Assembly: GCA_947461175.1 (NCBI GenBank)
Contig: CANHIY010000005.1
Span: 1-56,573 of the forward strand
From: Bacteriovoracaceae bacterium
Lineage (GTDB): Bacteria > Bdellovibrionota > Bacteriovoracia > Bacteriovoracales > Bacteriovoracaceae
Direction of reading: 5' to 3'
Length of the DNA stretch: 56,573 nt
Shown here: positions 1,374-13,019 of the stretch, piece after piece
Layout of the letters: every line of letters begins with the position of its first letter
Numbering within the stretch: position 1 is the stretch's first letter
Program-made: the position numbers and the translations under genes
The notes under the pieces: generated by a model
Databases searched by the model: none
Seen by the model: only the letters and a program-made list of their open reading frames with translations
What the model was told of the DNA's origin: nothing

Positions 1374-1964
1374 ATGTCATTTGTAAATTATCACACCAAA
1401 GAAATTAATTGTAAGATTGTTTATTATGGTCCAGGTCTTGGAGGTAAAACTACAAACATCCAGTACATTTACCAAAAAACCAGTTCGCAGAACAAAGGAC
1501 AAATGATCACCCTAAATACCGAAAATGAAAGAACACTTTTCTTTGATTTTCTACCCTTAGATTTAGGTGAGATTAGGGGCTTTAAAACGAGGTTCCACCT
1601 TTACACTGTTCCTGGGCAGGTTTTCTATGAAGCCAGTCGTAAACTAATTTTAAGAGGAGTAGATGGGTTAATATTTGTGGCCGATTCTCAAGTTGAAAGA
1701 ATGGAAGCGAATATTGAGTCCTATCAAGGACTCGAGAAAAATCTCGCGGAACAGGGTTATGATCTGGCCCGGGTACCTATGGTCATGCAATGGAATAAGC
1801 GTGATCTTCCGAATGTTGTTCCGGTTGAAGATTTACAATTTCAATTAAATAAAAAGAAGTTTCCTGCATTTGAGGCAGTAGCCAATAATGGTCTGGGTGT
1901 ATTTGAAACATTAAAGATGGTTTCTAAGTCCGTACTCTTAAATATTAAGGGTGGCCTGGAATAA
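1374..1964 (+). CDS. mglA: MglA-family small Ras-like GTPase
   Basis: MglA is a cytoplasmic polarity switch that marks the leading pole in Myxococcus gliding and has been shown to control prey invasion in Bdellovibrio. Sequence hallmarks: P-loop G19-P-G-L-G-G-K25-T26, the MglA-specific TVPGQ at 78-82 in place of the Ras [29 protein letters not shown] following it, and the guanine-specificity NKRD at 141-144. Length (196) matches MglA. It directly follows a roadblock protein, the usual regulator/GTPase pairing. Identification is very strong; its cellular role here is inferred. Confidence 0.93.
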
Positions 1965-9258: not shown

Positions 9259-10335
9259 ATGCTGTATCATTGGCTTTACCCACTAAGTCAAAACATTCAT
9301 TTTTTTAATGTTTTCAAGTACATCACTTTTCGCTCCTTCTTGGCTTTCATCATTGCCACTACAATTTCAATTTTGTGGGGAAAGCATTTTATTGCCTTGA
9401 TGAAATTAAGGCAGTTTGGACAGACGATCCGAGATGAAGGACCGGAGTCCCACAAAAAAAAGAAAGGAACTCCAACCTTTGGAGGGGTCTTCATCCTTGG
9501 TTCTGCCATGTTTGCCTGTGTAATTTGTGGTAATTTTGTCTCAGATCCGTTCTTAATTGCCTCTTTTGTGACGATCTCCTATTTTTTTCTGGGAGGGCTT
9601 GATGACTATCTGAAAGTACTCAAGAAAAACACAAAAGGTGTGTCGGCCAGGCAAAAGCTTCTTTGGCAATTTTCAACCGCTCTTGTTGCGTCATATGGCA
9701 TGATAGCCCTAGAAGTTACTGACACAAACATCTATGTGCCCTTCATTAAAGATCCAATTCTTGATATTGGATGGTTTTATGTACCTTTTGCCGCCTTCGT
9801 TATTGTAGGTTCATCAAATGCTCTGAATTTAACCGATGGACTAGATGGTCTTGCCATAGGACCGACTATTATTTCAGCCGCAACTCTAGGCCTCTTTTCT
9901 TACCTCGCTGGTCACTCAGAGCTCTCAAATTACTTACTTATACCCTATGTGCCCGATGTCGGAGAACTTCTGGTATTGGTTTCTGCTATCATTGGCGCTG
10001 GGGTAGGATTTCTTTGGTATAACGCTTATCCTGCTGAAATCTTTATGGGTGATGTGGGCTCACTATCTCTTGGTGGGTGCCTAGGAACAATAGCAGTGCT
10101 CACAAAAAATGAATTTTTATTTGTTTTAATTGGTGGAATTTTTGTTATAGAAGCAGTCTCAGTAATTCTTCAGGTGGCATCATTTAAAACACGGGGTAAA
10201 AGAATTTTCAAAATGGCGCCTCTACATCATCATTTCGAATTGATGGGGTGGCCTGAAACCAAGGTTATTGTGAGGTTTTGGATAGTGAGTTTGATTTTTG
10301 CTATTCTCGCCCTGGCAACCCTGAAACTGAGATAA
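9259..10335 (+). CDS. mraY: Phospho-MurNAc-pentapeptide transferase MraY
   Basis: Integral membrane enzyme that transfers phospho-MurNAc-pentapeptide to undecaprenyl phosphate to make lipid I. 358 residues with about ten membrane segments. Signatures: GPESHKKKKGTPTFGG on the first cytoplasmic loop, FLGGLDDYLKV (catalytic Asp pair), SNALNLTDGLDGLA, NAYPAEIFMGDVGSLSLGG and the histidine-rich MAPLHHHFELMGWPETKV. All catalytic positions that I can recall are present. Lies between murF and murD as in most dcw clusters. Confidence 0.97.
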   Translation: MLYHWLYPLSQNIHFFNVFKYITFRSFLAFIIATTISILWGKHFIALMKLRQFGQTIRDEGPESHKKKKGTPTFGGVFILGSAMFACVICGNFVSDPFLIASFVTISYFFLGGLDDYLKVLKKNTKGVSARQKLLWQFSTALVASYGMIALEVTDTNIYVPFIKDPILDIGWFYVPFAAFVIVGSSNALNLTDGLDGLAIGPTIISAATLGLFSYLAGHSELSNYLLIPYVPDVGELLVLVSAIIGAGVGFLWYNAYPAEIFMGDVGSLSLGGCLGTIAVLTKNEFLFVLIGGIFVIEAVSVILQVASFKTRGKRIFKMAPLHHHFELMGWPETKVIVRFWIVSLIFAILALATLKLR

Positions 10336-10353: not shown

Positions 10354-11736
10354 ATGGAGCAGTATAGAGGAAAAAAAGTTCTCATCGTAGGTCTAGGCAA
10401 AACTGGATTTGCTTTGATTAATCTTTTTAATCAGTGGGGATGTGACATAAAGGTAACAGACTTAAAACCCATTTTTGACCTTAACAAACAGGTGAAGCGT
10501 CTTAAAAAAATTAATCCTGTTCCTGGTATGACTTTGGGAGAACATAAGGATGAGGATTTTATTGAAGCTGATTTGGTCGTCTATTCTTCCTCAGTAGATC
10601 CAAATCTACATCAGTTAAAAGTTGCAAAAGAACATGGTCGGGCAGTTTATTCTGATTTTGCTTTTGCATATGAACATACACAAAAGCCTATTATTGCAGT
10701 TTGTGGATCCCATGGCAGAACTATTATATCCCATATGATTGGATATACTCTTAAGCTTGATAAAAAAAATGTTTTCATTGGTGGCACTTCAGAAGAACCC
10801 TTTGTTAATTTTCTTGGCTTACCAAATAAAGAAGAGTTTGATTACTGTGTGGTGGAAGTTTCACCCCAGCAACTTCAGACGGTAGAGAGCTTTAAACCCT
10901 TAATGGCCGTTTATCCAAATCTCGAAGAAAAAAACTTATTGGGAAGATTCAAAAACTCAGCCGATTATCTTGACACTGCCCTTAAAGTGGCGCGGAACTT
11001 AGGTCCAGAAAACTACTTAATTGTAAATTTTGATAAGCTTGCACCAAATTCCGTTTTAAGAACTTCTCAAGCTCAAACACTTTGGTATTCAAGAAAATCT
11101 TTTGTTACTATGGGTGTGATTTCTGAAATCCAGGGAACTCATTTTCATGATAAAAGAATTCACTGTAATATTCATTTTCATTCAGAATTTAAAGTTACTG
11201 ATATGCGAATTGTTGGTGTTAATAATCGTGAAAATCTCATGGCCGCAATTACTGCCTGTAAAGCCTTAAAAGTTTCCGATCAAGCTATTCAACAATGTAT
11301 AGAAAAATTCCCTGGCATTCCTCATCGCTTGGAATTTGTTGTTGAAAAAAATGGAGTCCGTTTTTACAACGACTCTAAGTCAGAAACAATGGATCAGTTA
11401 AAAATATCTCTTGAAGCTTTCAAGGATCAAGTGATTCTGATTGCAGGAGGAAAAGAGCTTGAAGGCGTGGTTTTCGATAAGTATGCCAATATTATCCGTG
11501 AAAAAGTACGAGTTCTAGTTCTCGTTGGTGAAGTAAAGGAAACAATGAACCGGGTGTTGGGAGATGTCACCCAAACTTATCTTGTAGGATCATTTGATGA
11601 ATCAGTTCTGTTGGCCTATCAAAAATCAAGAACTGGAGATACAATCTTACTTTGTCCTGGAAATGAAGGTTCAGATGTATTCAGAGATTTTGAAGAGAAA
11701 GGTAATTACTACAAAAAATTAATCTTCCAATTATAA
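10354..11736 (+). CDS. murD: MurD-like protein with degenerate catalytic motifs
   Basis: By position, length (460) and overall similarity this is MurD, which adds D-Glu to UDP-MurNAc-L-Ala. N-terminal GLGKTGFALINLF, central VVEVSPQQLQTVESFKP and C-terminal GIPHRLEFV with FYNDSK are clearly MurD. However the ATP loop is G118-S-H-G-R122-T, with Arg for the universal Lys; the segment that should read N...DH.D is N189-L-E-E-K-N-L-L, with no His/Asp; the HN before the C-terminal domain is N290-N291; NDSKAT is NDSKSE; and SPACAS is CPGNEG (434-439). The frame is intact and neighbouring Mur ligases are canonical, so this is selective change, not a sequencing error. Preceded by AAGGAG. It may be a pseudo-ligase or an altered enzyme. 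Confidence 0.8.
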   Translation: MEQYRGKKVLIVGLGKTGFALINLFNQWGCDIKVTDLKPIFDLNKQVKRLKKINPVPGMTLGEHKDEDFIEADLVVYSSSVDPNLHQLKVAKEHGRAVYSDFAFAYEHTQKPIIAVCGSHGRTIISHMIGYTLKLDKKNVFIGGTSEEPFVNFLGLPNKEEFDYCVVEVSPQQLQTVESFKPLMAVYPNLEEKNLLGRFKNSADYLDTALKVARNLGPENYLIVNFDKLAPNSVLRTSQAQTLWYSRKSFVTMGVISEIQGTHFHDKRIHCNIHFHSEFKVTDMRIVGVNNRENLMAAITACKALKVSDQAIQQCIEKFPGIPHRLEFVVEKNGVRFYNDSKSETMDQLKISLEAFKDQVILIAGGKELEGVVFDKYANIIREKVRVLVLVGEVKETMNRVLGDVTQTYLVGSFDESVLLAYQKSRTGDTILLCPGNEGSDVFRDFEEKGNYYKKLIFQL

Positions 11737-11776: not shown

Positions 11777-11852
11777 AAAGATTTTATATATTTATTGAGC
11801 CCGGCCCTAACTCAAGATAGACTGTTACAAACCTTAATTGTGGCAGTTTTCA

Positions 11853-13019
11853 ATGATTGAAAATAATAAACTAGAAAAGTTAAGTAATTACTTCCTGATC
11901 AATGTCTTTTTTTTAATACTATTTGGCGTCATTATGGTGTTCTCTGCCAGTTATATGTATGCAACTGAGAACATGGGCTCAAGTTATTTCTTTTTGGCAA
12001 AACAGTTAATCTTCATTGTATTAGGACTTTTACTTGCTCTGATATTTTCTCGGATGAAAGTCCTTTTTTTATATAAGCATGCTTATAAATTGAATGCTTT
12101 TTTCGGTTTCCTTGTAACCCTCACACTTATCCCAGGACTAAGAGTTGTTATTAAGGGTTCTAAGAGGTGGTTAAATATAGGATTTATGCATCTTCAGCCA
12201 GGGGAATTTGTTAAATATTCTCTAATGTTTGCTGCCATTAAATATTTTGAAAACTTCAACAATTATACCCCCAAGCAAAGAGTAATTTATCTTTTGGGAC
12301 TTATTTACCCTCTTGGTGTTTTTATTCTACAGCCCGATTTTGGAACATTTTTTATTTCAGCACTTATTATTGGATTTATTGCTTACCTCAGTGCTTTCCC
12401 CAGGAAATATTTTTATTCAGTTTTAATCCTTGGGATGATTGGCGCTTTTGGCATTCTTATCTCTGCTCCTTATAGGGTTAAAAGATTACTGACGTTTTTG
12501 GATCCATGGAAAGATCCAAGAGGTGCAGGGTTTCAAGTTATTCAGTCATTTCTTGCCTTTGCCAACGGATCTTTCTTTGGGCAGGGTTTGGGCAATAGTA
12601 ATGAAAAACTTTTCTATCTCCCAGAGGCCTATAATGATTTTATTTTTTCAGTAATTGGAGAGGAGCTTGGTTTTTTAGGAGTCCTTATTACGATCTTGAT
12701 GTTTTTGAGCTTTATATTCATCGGTTTTAAAATGGCGATTTCCCTAAAGTCCAAAGTTGGGGGGATAATGGTTTCGGCTATAATTTTTGTTATAGGCCTA
12801 CAGGCATTTATGAACATGGGTGTCGTTCTTGGAGTTCTTCCCACAAAAGGATTAAATCTTCCCTTCATCAGTTATGGAGGTTCATCCATGGTAGCAAACC
12901 TTGGTGCTTTAGGGCTTATATTTGCGTGCTTAAAAATTCAACCAGGCGATTCACGGGTTCCAAATAGTCGTCAACCTCAGTATCAAAAAGGGGCGCTTAA
13001 AAGCGTATTTAATTCATGA
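11853..13019 (+). CDS. ftsW: Septal peptidoglycan glycosyltransferase FtsW (SEDS family)
   Basis: Polymerises lipid II glycan at the septum with FtsI. About 388 residues and ten membrane segments. Signatures: VFSASYMYA in the first segment, KRWLNIGFMHLQPGEFVKYSL, ILQPDFGT, and GLGNSNEKLFYLPEAYNDFIFSVIGEELGFLG, followed by LNLPFISYGGSS. These are the usual FtsW/RodA blocks; the dcw position argues for FtsW. An ATG at 11853 is taken as start; a TTG at 11838 would add five residues, and neither has a good ribosome site. The stop overlaps murG as ATGA. Confidence 0.94.
   Translation: MIENNKLEKLSNYFLINVFFLILFGVIMVFSASYMYATENMGSSYFFLAKQLIFIVLGLLLALIFSRMKVLFLYKHAYKLNAFFGFLVTLTLIPGLRVVIKGSKRWLNIGFMHLQPGEFVKYSLMFAAIKYFENFNNYTPKQRVIYLLGLIYPLGVFILQPDFGTFFISALIIGFIAYLSAFPRKYFYSVLILGMIGAFGILISAPYRVKRLLTFLDPWKDPRGAGFQVIQSFLAFANGSFFGQGLGNSNEKLFYLPEAYNDFIFSVIGEELGFLGVLITILMFLSFIFIGFKMAISLKSKVGGIMVSAIIFVIGLQAFMNMGVVLGVLPTKGLNLPFISYGGSSMVANLGALGLIFACLKIQPGDSRVPNSRQPQYQKGALKSVFNS

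Follow-up and report, generated by a model that had tools for sequence, protein, structure and literature searches.

Why does the dcw cluster of a Bacteriovoracaceae bacterium, from a family that includes predators of other bacteria, keep a MurD whose active site has been rewritten? The window, i.e., the whole stretch of 56,573 nucleotides analysed here, corresponds to contig C5 (1-56573); the assembly totals 3.0 Mb in 211 contigs and is 89.7% complete. The reading frame in the murD slot is uninterrupted over 460 codons, as an earlier note made from the letters of this DNA had stated, and the protein reaches 254.1 bits against the NCBIfam profile TIGR01087 (cut-off 211.95). An AlphaFold model (pLDDT 83.4; weak at residues 282-288, 321-323, and 440-450) agrees with the canonical fold motifs that the note described: the 33 best PDB matches are MurD structures, with TM-scores of 0.55-0.67 normalized by the query. 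Because the protein exceeds the curated MurD cut-off, it represents an annotation trap, and a pipeline that uses TIGR01087 alone would call it an active ligase. The features discussed below are collected in Table 1.

Table 1. Positions in the window of the dcw MurD, its altered sites, and the two adjoining genes.
Feature	Position	Strand	Remark
Degenerate MurD (probable pseudo-ligase)	10354..11736	+	460 aa; dcw murD slot
P-loop GSHGRT	10705..10722	+	Lys115 -> Arg122 (AGA 10717-10719)
N138 -> Thr145	10786..10788	+	place from alignment columns
N189-LEEKNLL motif	10918..10941	+	H183 -> Asn194
Lys198 (carbamylated in MurD) -> Ala209	10978..10980	+	Lys retained by about half of the family
Patch 244-281, WYSRKSF...GTHFHDKRIHCNIHFHSEFKV	11083..11196	+	central domain, His-rich, near-invariant, gained
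T321 -> Glu344	11383..11385	+	family residue counts
CPGNEG (434-439) replacing SPACAS, D-Glu pocket	11653..11670	+	alignment to E. coli MurD
mraY	9259..10335	+	directly upstream of degenerate murD; comparable conservation
ftsW	11838..13019	+	directly downstream of degenerate murD

Family positions are given in the literature numbering of E. coli MurD, to which the window protein was aligned. The two proteins share the Mur ligase fold (PDB 3lk7, 2uag), the gene position, and a score above the equivalog cut-off, whereas the window protein lacks the P-loop lysine, N138, H183, and T321. The alignment shows replacement of K115, N138, H183, K198, T321, and S415. Position 348 has no lysine either; the partner of K348 depends on the alignment (I, N, T, and others in one, E or D in another) and is never Lys. 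The changes thus fall in the P-loop, the metal/substrate residues, and the D-Glu pocket, and we take the substituted positions to be the P-loop lysine, the Mg-binding His, and the D-Glu contacts of E. coli MurD. Retained are D35, a basic residue at 37, E157, S159, N268, N271, R302, D317, K319, and F422, with D35 and residue 37 presumably being the UDP-sugar pocket positions. Of the residues expected in an active MurD, K115, N138, H183, and K198 are absent from the window protein. The accessible part of one study describes Lys198 mutants of MurD as considerably less active (PMC4816537). The motif changes listed in the earlier note were all recovered: Arg122 in GSHGRT, NLEEKNLL beginning at N189 where N-x-x-x-D-H-x-D is expected, NN for HN, NDSKSE for NDSKAT, and CPGNEG at 434-439. 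Its statement that almost every catalytic residue is lost was overstated, because E157, S159, N271, R302, D317, and K319 are retained. As for its claim that MurC, MurE, and MurF keep the corresponding residues, inspection by eye, confined to these positions, found GxxGKT and the His at the motif in place.

The losses are a property of the group. The class sample comprises 129 genomes, which share one family code. The degenerate copy was detected in 120 of them (a few copies are partial), and no high-quality genome lacks it (73 of 73; completeness 90% or more, contamination 5% or less); the nine genomes with no match are all less than 90% complete. Within the genus, 22 of 23 other genomes carry it at 83-90% identity, one copy being truncated at a contig end. 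Among named genomes, a scan found 99 relatives; the 80 listed are 60-89% identical to the window protein, and most carry the titles Bacteriovoracaceae, Bacteriovorax, or Halobacteriovorax, while some are named more loosely. The residue counts cover 73 degenerate sequences, taken from 73 genomes among the 120. Position 115 is Arg in all 72 sequences that cover it (one does not), position 138 is T in 71 and S in two, with Asn in none, and position 183 is His in 0 of 73. Position 321 is E in 69 and T in four. Lys198 is absent from 36 of the 73, the window protein included (K 37, A 27, S 5, C 4). E157, S159, D317, and K319 are each retained in 72 of 73 sequences, and R302 in at least 71 of 73. R115 and T138 are likewise invariant in 66 rows comprising the window protein and 65 named loci. 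The alignment with Bacteriovoracia copies that the earlier note had proposed as a check thus shows the losses of K115, N138, and H183 recurring, and because they recur across 73 class sequences we rejected chance or an assembly artefact as their source. No viral relatives were found with the two patterns scanned. One assembly with 5% contamination holds the degenerate MurD twice (G011:C39:44488-45867 and G011:C7:8336-9715) and is probably mixed.

The gene is under strong purifying selection. Among 18 genomes with both murD genes (see below), i.e., 153 pairs in which synonymous sites are mostly saturated, the pN of the degenerate copy was below that of the live MurD in every one of the 153; the 11 unsaturated pairs usable for both gave a median dN/dS of 0.028 versus 0.071. 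At least 95% conservation is seen at 169 columns of the window protein in the degenerate set versus 79 in the live set. Identity to the window protein was also compared with that of MraY: 86.9 versus 86.8% in near loci (n=24; MurD higher in 12), 73.0 versus 69.8% at middle distance (n=11; MurD higher in 11/11), and 61.9 versus 67.4% in the most distant loci (n=40; MurD higher in 2/40). In the distant loci the degenerate MurD ranks under FtsA (64.6%) and over FtsZ, FtsI, FtsW, MurB, MurC, MurE, and MurF. It is more conserved than MurB, MurC, MurE, MurF, and MurG in each locus compared, the MurG comparison (33 of 33) covering 33 loci of which just one is distant.

The largest gain in conservation lies in a hairpin at residues 244-281. 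Its mean column conservation is 0.86 in the degenerate set versus 0.44 in 42 MurDs from other families of the phylum, which are presumed dcw orthologues and include two, from genomes G208 and G287, that are partly degenerate. In the second MurD the same residues reach 0.16, a figure lowered by gaps. The stretch ranks third among 423 of its kind within the degenerate set; H263, H265, and R268 are invariant (73/73), H276 is present in 71, and H270 in 67 of 73. As a guess, it might be a metal or docking site. The segment 184-203 round H183, in contrast, is less conserved in the degenerate set than in MurDs of other families (0.56 versus 0.66).

A second MurD is encoded elsewhere in the genome. 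Four of the six Mur_ligase_M matches of the window genome lie in the dcw cluster, and the sixth, on contig C77, looks by reading like Mpl. The remaining one (G000:C37:14674-15987; 438 aa) scores 319 bits with TIGR01087 and carries GTNGKTTT, an intact His motif, Lys198, and SPGFPSFDQF. It is the compensating MurD that the earlier note had envisaged, and its presence gives residue 2 of the stem peptide a plausible maker. All 23 other genomes of the genus have it (57-80% identity, one partial). In the class, its profile matches 114 of 129 genomes, in 113 of them elsewhere than at the dcw place, and it is off-cluster in 70 of 73 high-quality genomes, off-cluster places being told from dcw places by eye. 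The idea that these genomes hold no compensating MurD was therefore rejected. The 68 second copies read, out of 113 and including the one on C37, all keep K115, N138, E157, H183, and K198 as well as S159, R302, D317, K319, and T321. Exceptions that count against a pseudo-ligase with a replacement are G101 (95% complete) and G114 (100% complete), in which a second MurD was not found, G048, whose only full match is at the dcw place and whose second copy is a fragment, and family f2, treated below. Of 41 loci of the second MurD, 37 have a methyltransferase-like ORF nearby, and 25 have one that resembles aminopeptidase P (names by reading; e.g., L191 from 5183 and L207 from 5313).

The second MurD could itself have a different activity, being an L-Glu-type MurD2 or another ligase, with residue 2 made differently. 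The positions of MurD2 in Xanthomonas are Glu, Arg, Pro, and Phe at D182, K348, A414, and L416. Where the window protein has K, L (E in another alignment), E, and S, the commonest letters in the second MurD are N, R, P, and F, so that three of the four agree with what the accessible part of the Xanthomonas study gives (PMC8788868): R348 in 67, P414 in 67, and F416 in 64 of 68 copies. Furthermore, the glutamate racemase MurI could be detected neither in the window genome nor in 11 of 73 high-quality class genomes. Against this, 65 of 68 copies have N, S, or T instead of Glu at the fourth position, and the same part of that study reports that S. mutans MurD also has the Arg, its physiological substrate being D-Glu (PMC8788868). 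MurI is present in the other 62 of 73 high-quality genomes, and with this count the lead of a second MurD deprived of D-Glu was dropped. D-amino-acid-transaminase-like proteins, at E 3e-44 or better, were detected in 11 of 13 MurI-lacking genomes searched (11 of 12 besides the window genome); as these matches are all below the curated cut-off, another transaminase class is possible. We regard a second MurD that does not ligate D-Glu as quite unlikely.

For the degenerate protein, a decaying relic or a gene kept for operon transcription alone would fit the lost catalytic residues and the apparent absence of a dcw-type copy from one genome, G250. A dN/dS of about 0.03, the absence of internal stops among the class matches listed, and a protein-level conservation that exceeds that of most cluster enzymes contradict this reading, which we consider scarcely conceivable and rejected. 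The same purifying selection fits an enzyme that is still active, i.e., a ligase or ATP-using enzyme in which Arg stands in for the P-loop Lys and the active site or substrate is new. The invariant Arg115 and the near-universal E157, S159, R302, D317, and K319 agree with such an enzyme, and weak or altered activity is possible because K198 persists in 37 of 73 sequences and E157, S159, D317, and K319 in 72 of 73 each. On the other side, K115, N138, and H183 are lost together, T321 has become Glu in 69 of 73, position 198 is free among K, A, S, and C, and conservation is lower round H183 than in MurDs of other families and has gained most in the hairpin. This makes a retained ATP-dependent activity, to our judgement, rather unlikely. 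A mere switch of substrate appears less likely too, because the changes affect ATP/Mg residues and not the D-Glu pocket alone.

At the level of sequence, the dcw MurD has lost catalytic residues, is conserved as a protein, keeps its slot, and is accompanied by an intact replacement. What is expected of a pseudoenzyme is found here: catalytic residues gone, fold retained, and purifying selection on the gene. Of the three options that the earlier note raised, namely a pseudo-ligase, a substrate switch, and a compensating MurD elsewhere, the first is best supported because a compensating MurD with the catalytic set exists. The window protein is therefore probably a pseudo-ligase that is kept for binding, scaffolding, or regulation, with a partner that we infer; it may be either of the two that the note named, a scaffold or a regulator. 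In the proposed mechanism, the second MurD, from another lineage, would add residue 2 of the stem peptide, and the degenerate copy would be kept because its fold, UDP-sugar pocket, and patch 244-281 bind a partner or precursor. The retention of D35 and a basic residue at 37 fits a kept UDP-sugar pocket. Binding would most likely take place next to MraY at the membrane, and the protein might hold precursor-synthesis proteins together or sense UDP-MurNAc-peptide.

MraY as the partner is weakly suggested by gene adjacency and similar conservation. The order of genes is ftsI, murE, murF, mraY, degenerate murD, ftsW, murG, murC, murB, ftsA, ftsZ, which is the usual dcw order and agrees with the canonical flanks described in the earlier note. 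These names were given by reading, with NCBIfam scores that exceed the cut-off for murE and murC and narrowly miss it for murF. In named loci, mraY lies directly upstream of the degenerate murD in 80 of 80, and ftsW directly downstream in 71 of the 78 with room. Between ftsW and murC, murG passed a length filter in 1 of 43 distant versus 22 of 25 near loci, some loci being short, and in L112 (11470-14065), the locus of Halobacteriovorax marinus, murC comes immediately after ftsW; it seems that more distant genera lack murG at this place. Upstream of the cluster, window positions 1374-1964 encode a small Ras-like GTPase (Arf/Gtr1 Pfam match), by reading presumably MglA-like, and a 169-aa ORF with no Pfam match (860-1369) adjoins it.

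Whether cytoplasmic Mur enzymes form a physical complex is an old open question, difficult to test because each Mur protein is also an essential enzyme. In this group evolution appears, from the sequences, to have removed the chemistry of one Mur member and kept the protein, so that a non-catalytic role of MurD could be studied here with the pathway left alive. Mur ligase complexes with MurG, MreB, and MraY have been described in some bacteria (PMC4929429, available in part), and in M. tuberculosis Mur ligases interact with FtsZ, FtsW, and FtsQ, while ligase-ligase contacts were not found (PMC3605390, with a correction to its Fig. 5, PMC10965061; both available in part). The closest precedent for a regulator may be mycobacterial CwlM, a peptidoglycan-enzyme homologue whose enzymatic function is non-essential; through its association with MurA it influences precursor synthesis from within the cytoplasm, according to the accessible text (PMC4946905). 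Unlike the window protein, for which the partner is putative, CwlM is an amidase homologue and not a Mur ligase. The plant MurE-like protein of the plastid RNA polymerase complex has, in the parts available, a role distinct from peptidoglycan synthesis (PMC4080259, PMC12681378), but it derives from a different ligase, works in an organelle, and retains many catalytic residues, whereas in the window genome a second MurD accompanies a full dcw cluster. MurD2/MurL of Xanthomonas is also a changed MurD in the peptidoglycan pathway, but the accessible text presents it as an active L-Glu ligase, whereas the degenerate MurD lacks ATP/Mg residues (PMC8788868). Among the matches listed from the open-access literature, none describes a MurD that has lost catalysis or the MurD of this group, and we found no mention of MurD in the accessible part of a comparative genomics paper on the phylum (PMC11656739). 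Pseudoenzymes and cell-wall-enzyme-derived regulators like CwlM are already known; a probable pseudo-MurD that is conserved within the dcw cluster would be a new addition to them.

A quick tree of 118 rows places all degenerate copies in a single clade (SH-aLRT 100) with a long stem (1.03 changes per column) within the phylum's dcw-type MurD lineage. Of 28 second copies, 27 join the off-cluster-type MurDs found in other families (SH-aLRT 86), and the one from G123 falls elsewhere. The exact placement of the degenerate clade is supported at 68/54 only in a more careful 60-row tree; the quick tree has it as sister to families f17/f24 (SH-aLRT 91), which would fit one loss shared with them, but the careful tree does not. 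MurD was detected at E 1e-45 in 220 of 240 phylum genomes, and residues were read in selected families only, where the loss of any of K115, E157, H183, K198, and K319 was labelled degenerate. Such dcw copies occur in f7 (4/4 genomes read), f17 (2/2), f24 (1/1), f2 (G151 complete; G024 and G032 in pieces), and the single genomes G208 and G287. In the 11 of these loci checked, mraY adjoins all and ftsW was seen in eight. The losses differ: f7 lacks E157, f17 and f24 lack H183 and K319, and all retain Lys115. In f2 (G151, G024, G032; L350, L356, L365, L352), H183, K198, and K319 are lost where covered, and Lys115 is kept there too. The genomes of f7, f17, f24, G208, and G287 each have a second MurD with K115, N138, E157, H183, and K198, and in f2, with genomes 75-88% complete, a second MurD was not found. 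On the tree the degenerate state needs six changes (five to six in bootstraps), at least three of them forced by well-supported branches. Several lineages of the phylum, mostly with a second MurD, thus seem to have separately lost the chemistry of the dcw copy and yet kept the protein.

G250, of family f6, seems to be the exception. Most f6 genomes have two MurDs, the dcw copy being mildly changed in 5 of 6 dcw copies read, and G277 gave one MurD match, a fragment. G250 (one contig, 3.35 Mb, 99% complete; L388, L418) yielded just one MurD at E 1e-42, which belongs to the off-cluster type; the dcw-type MurD can therefore apparently be lost. Its dcw cluster is broken up in the 800 kb examined as two 400-kb parts, with murE-murF near 628 kb and ftsA-ftsZ near 2.67 Mb; neither mraY nor a dcw-type murD was found in the rest of the 20-kb murE-murF piece, and mraY was not located in the 800 kb. 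We tentatively propose, as a possibility that we hold to be doubtful, that the murD slot between mraY and ftsW has a structural role separable from catalysis, and that in Bacteriovoracia the protein has turned into a dedicated hub, which would bind UDP-MurNAc-peptide, pair with MraY, and carry a new docking or metal site rich in His. G250 lowers the odds of such a separable role. If it existed, such a role might also be hidden in the ordinary MurD that other bacteria have. In f9 (L351, L353, L354, L355), the four genomes read have a single short, very divergent dcw MurD with the main catalytic residues retained. At the second MurD loci of f7 (L346, L359, L360, L363), the off-cluster MurD adjoins a murF-like gene.
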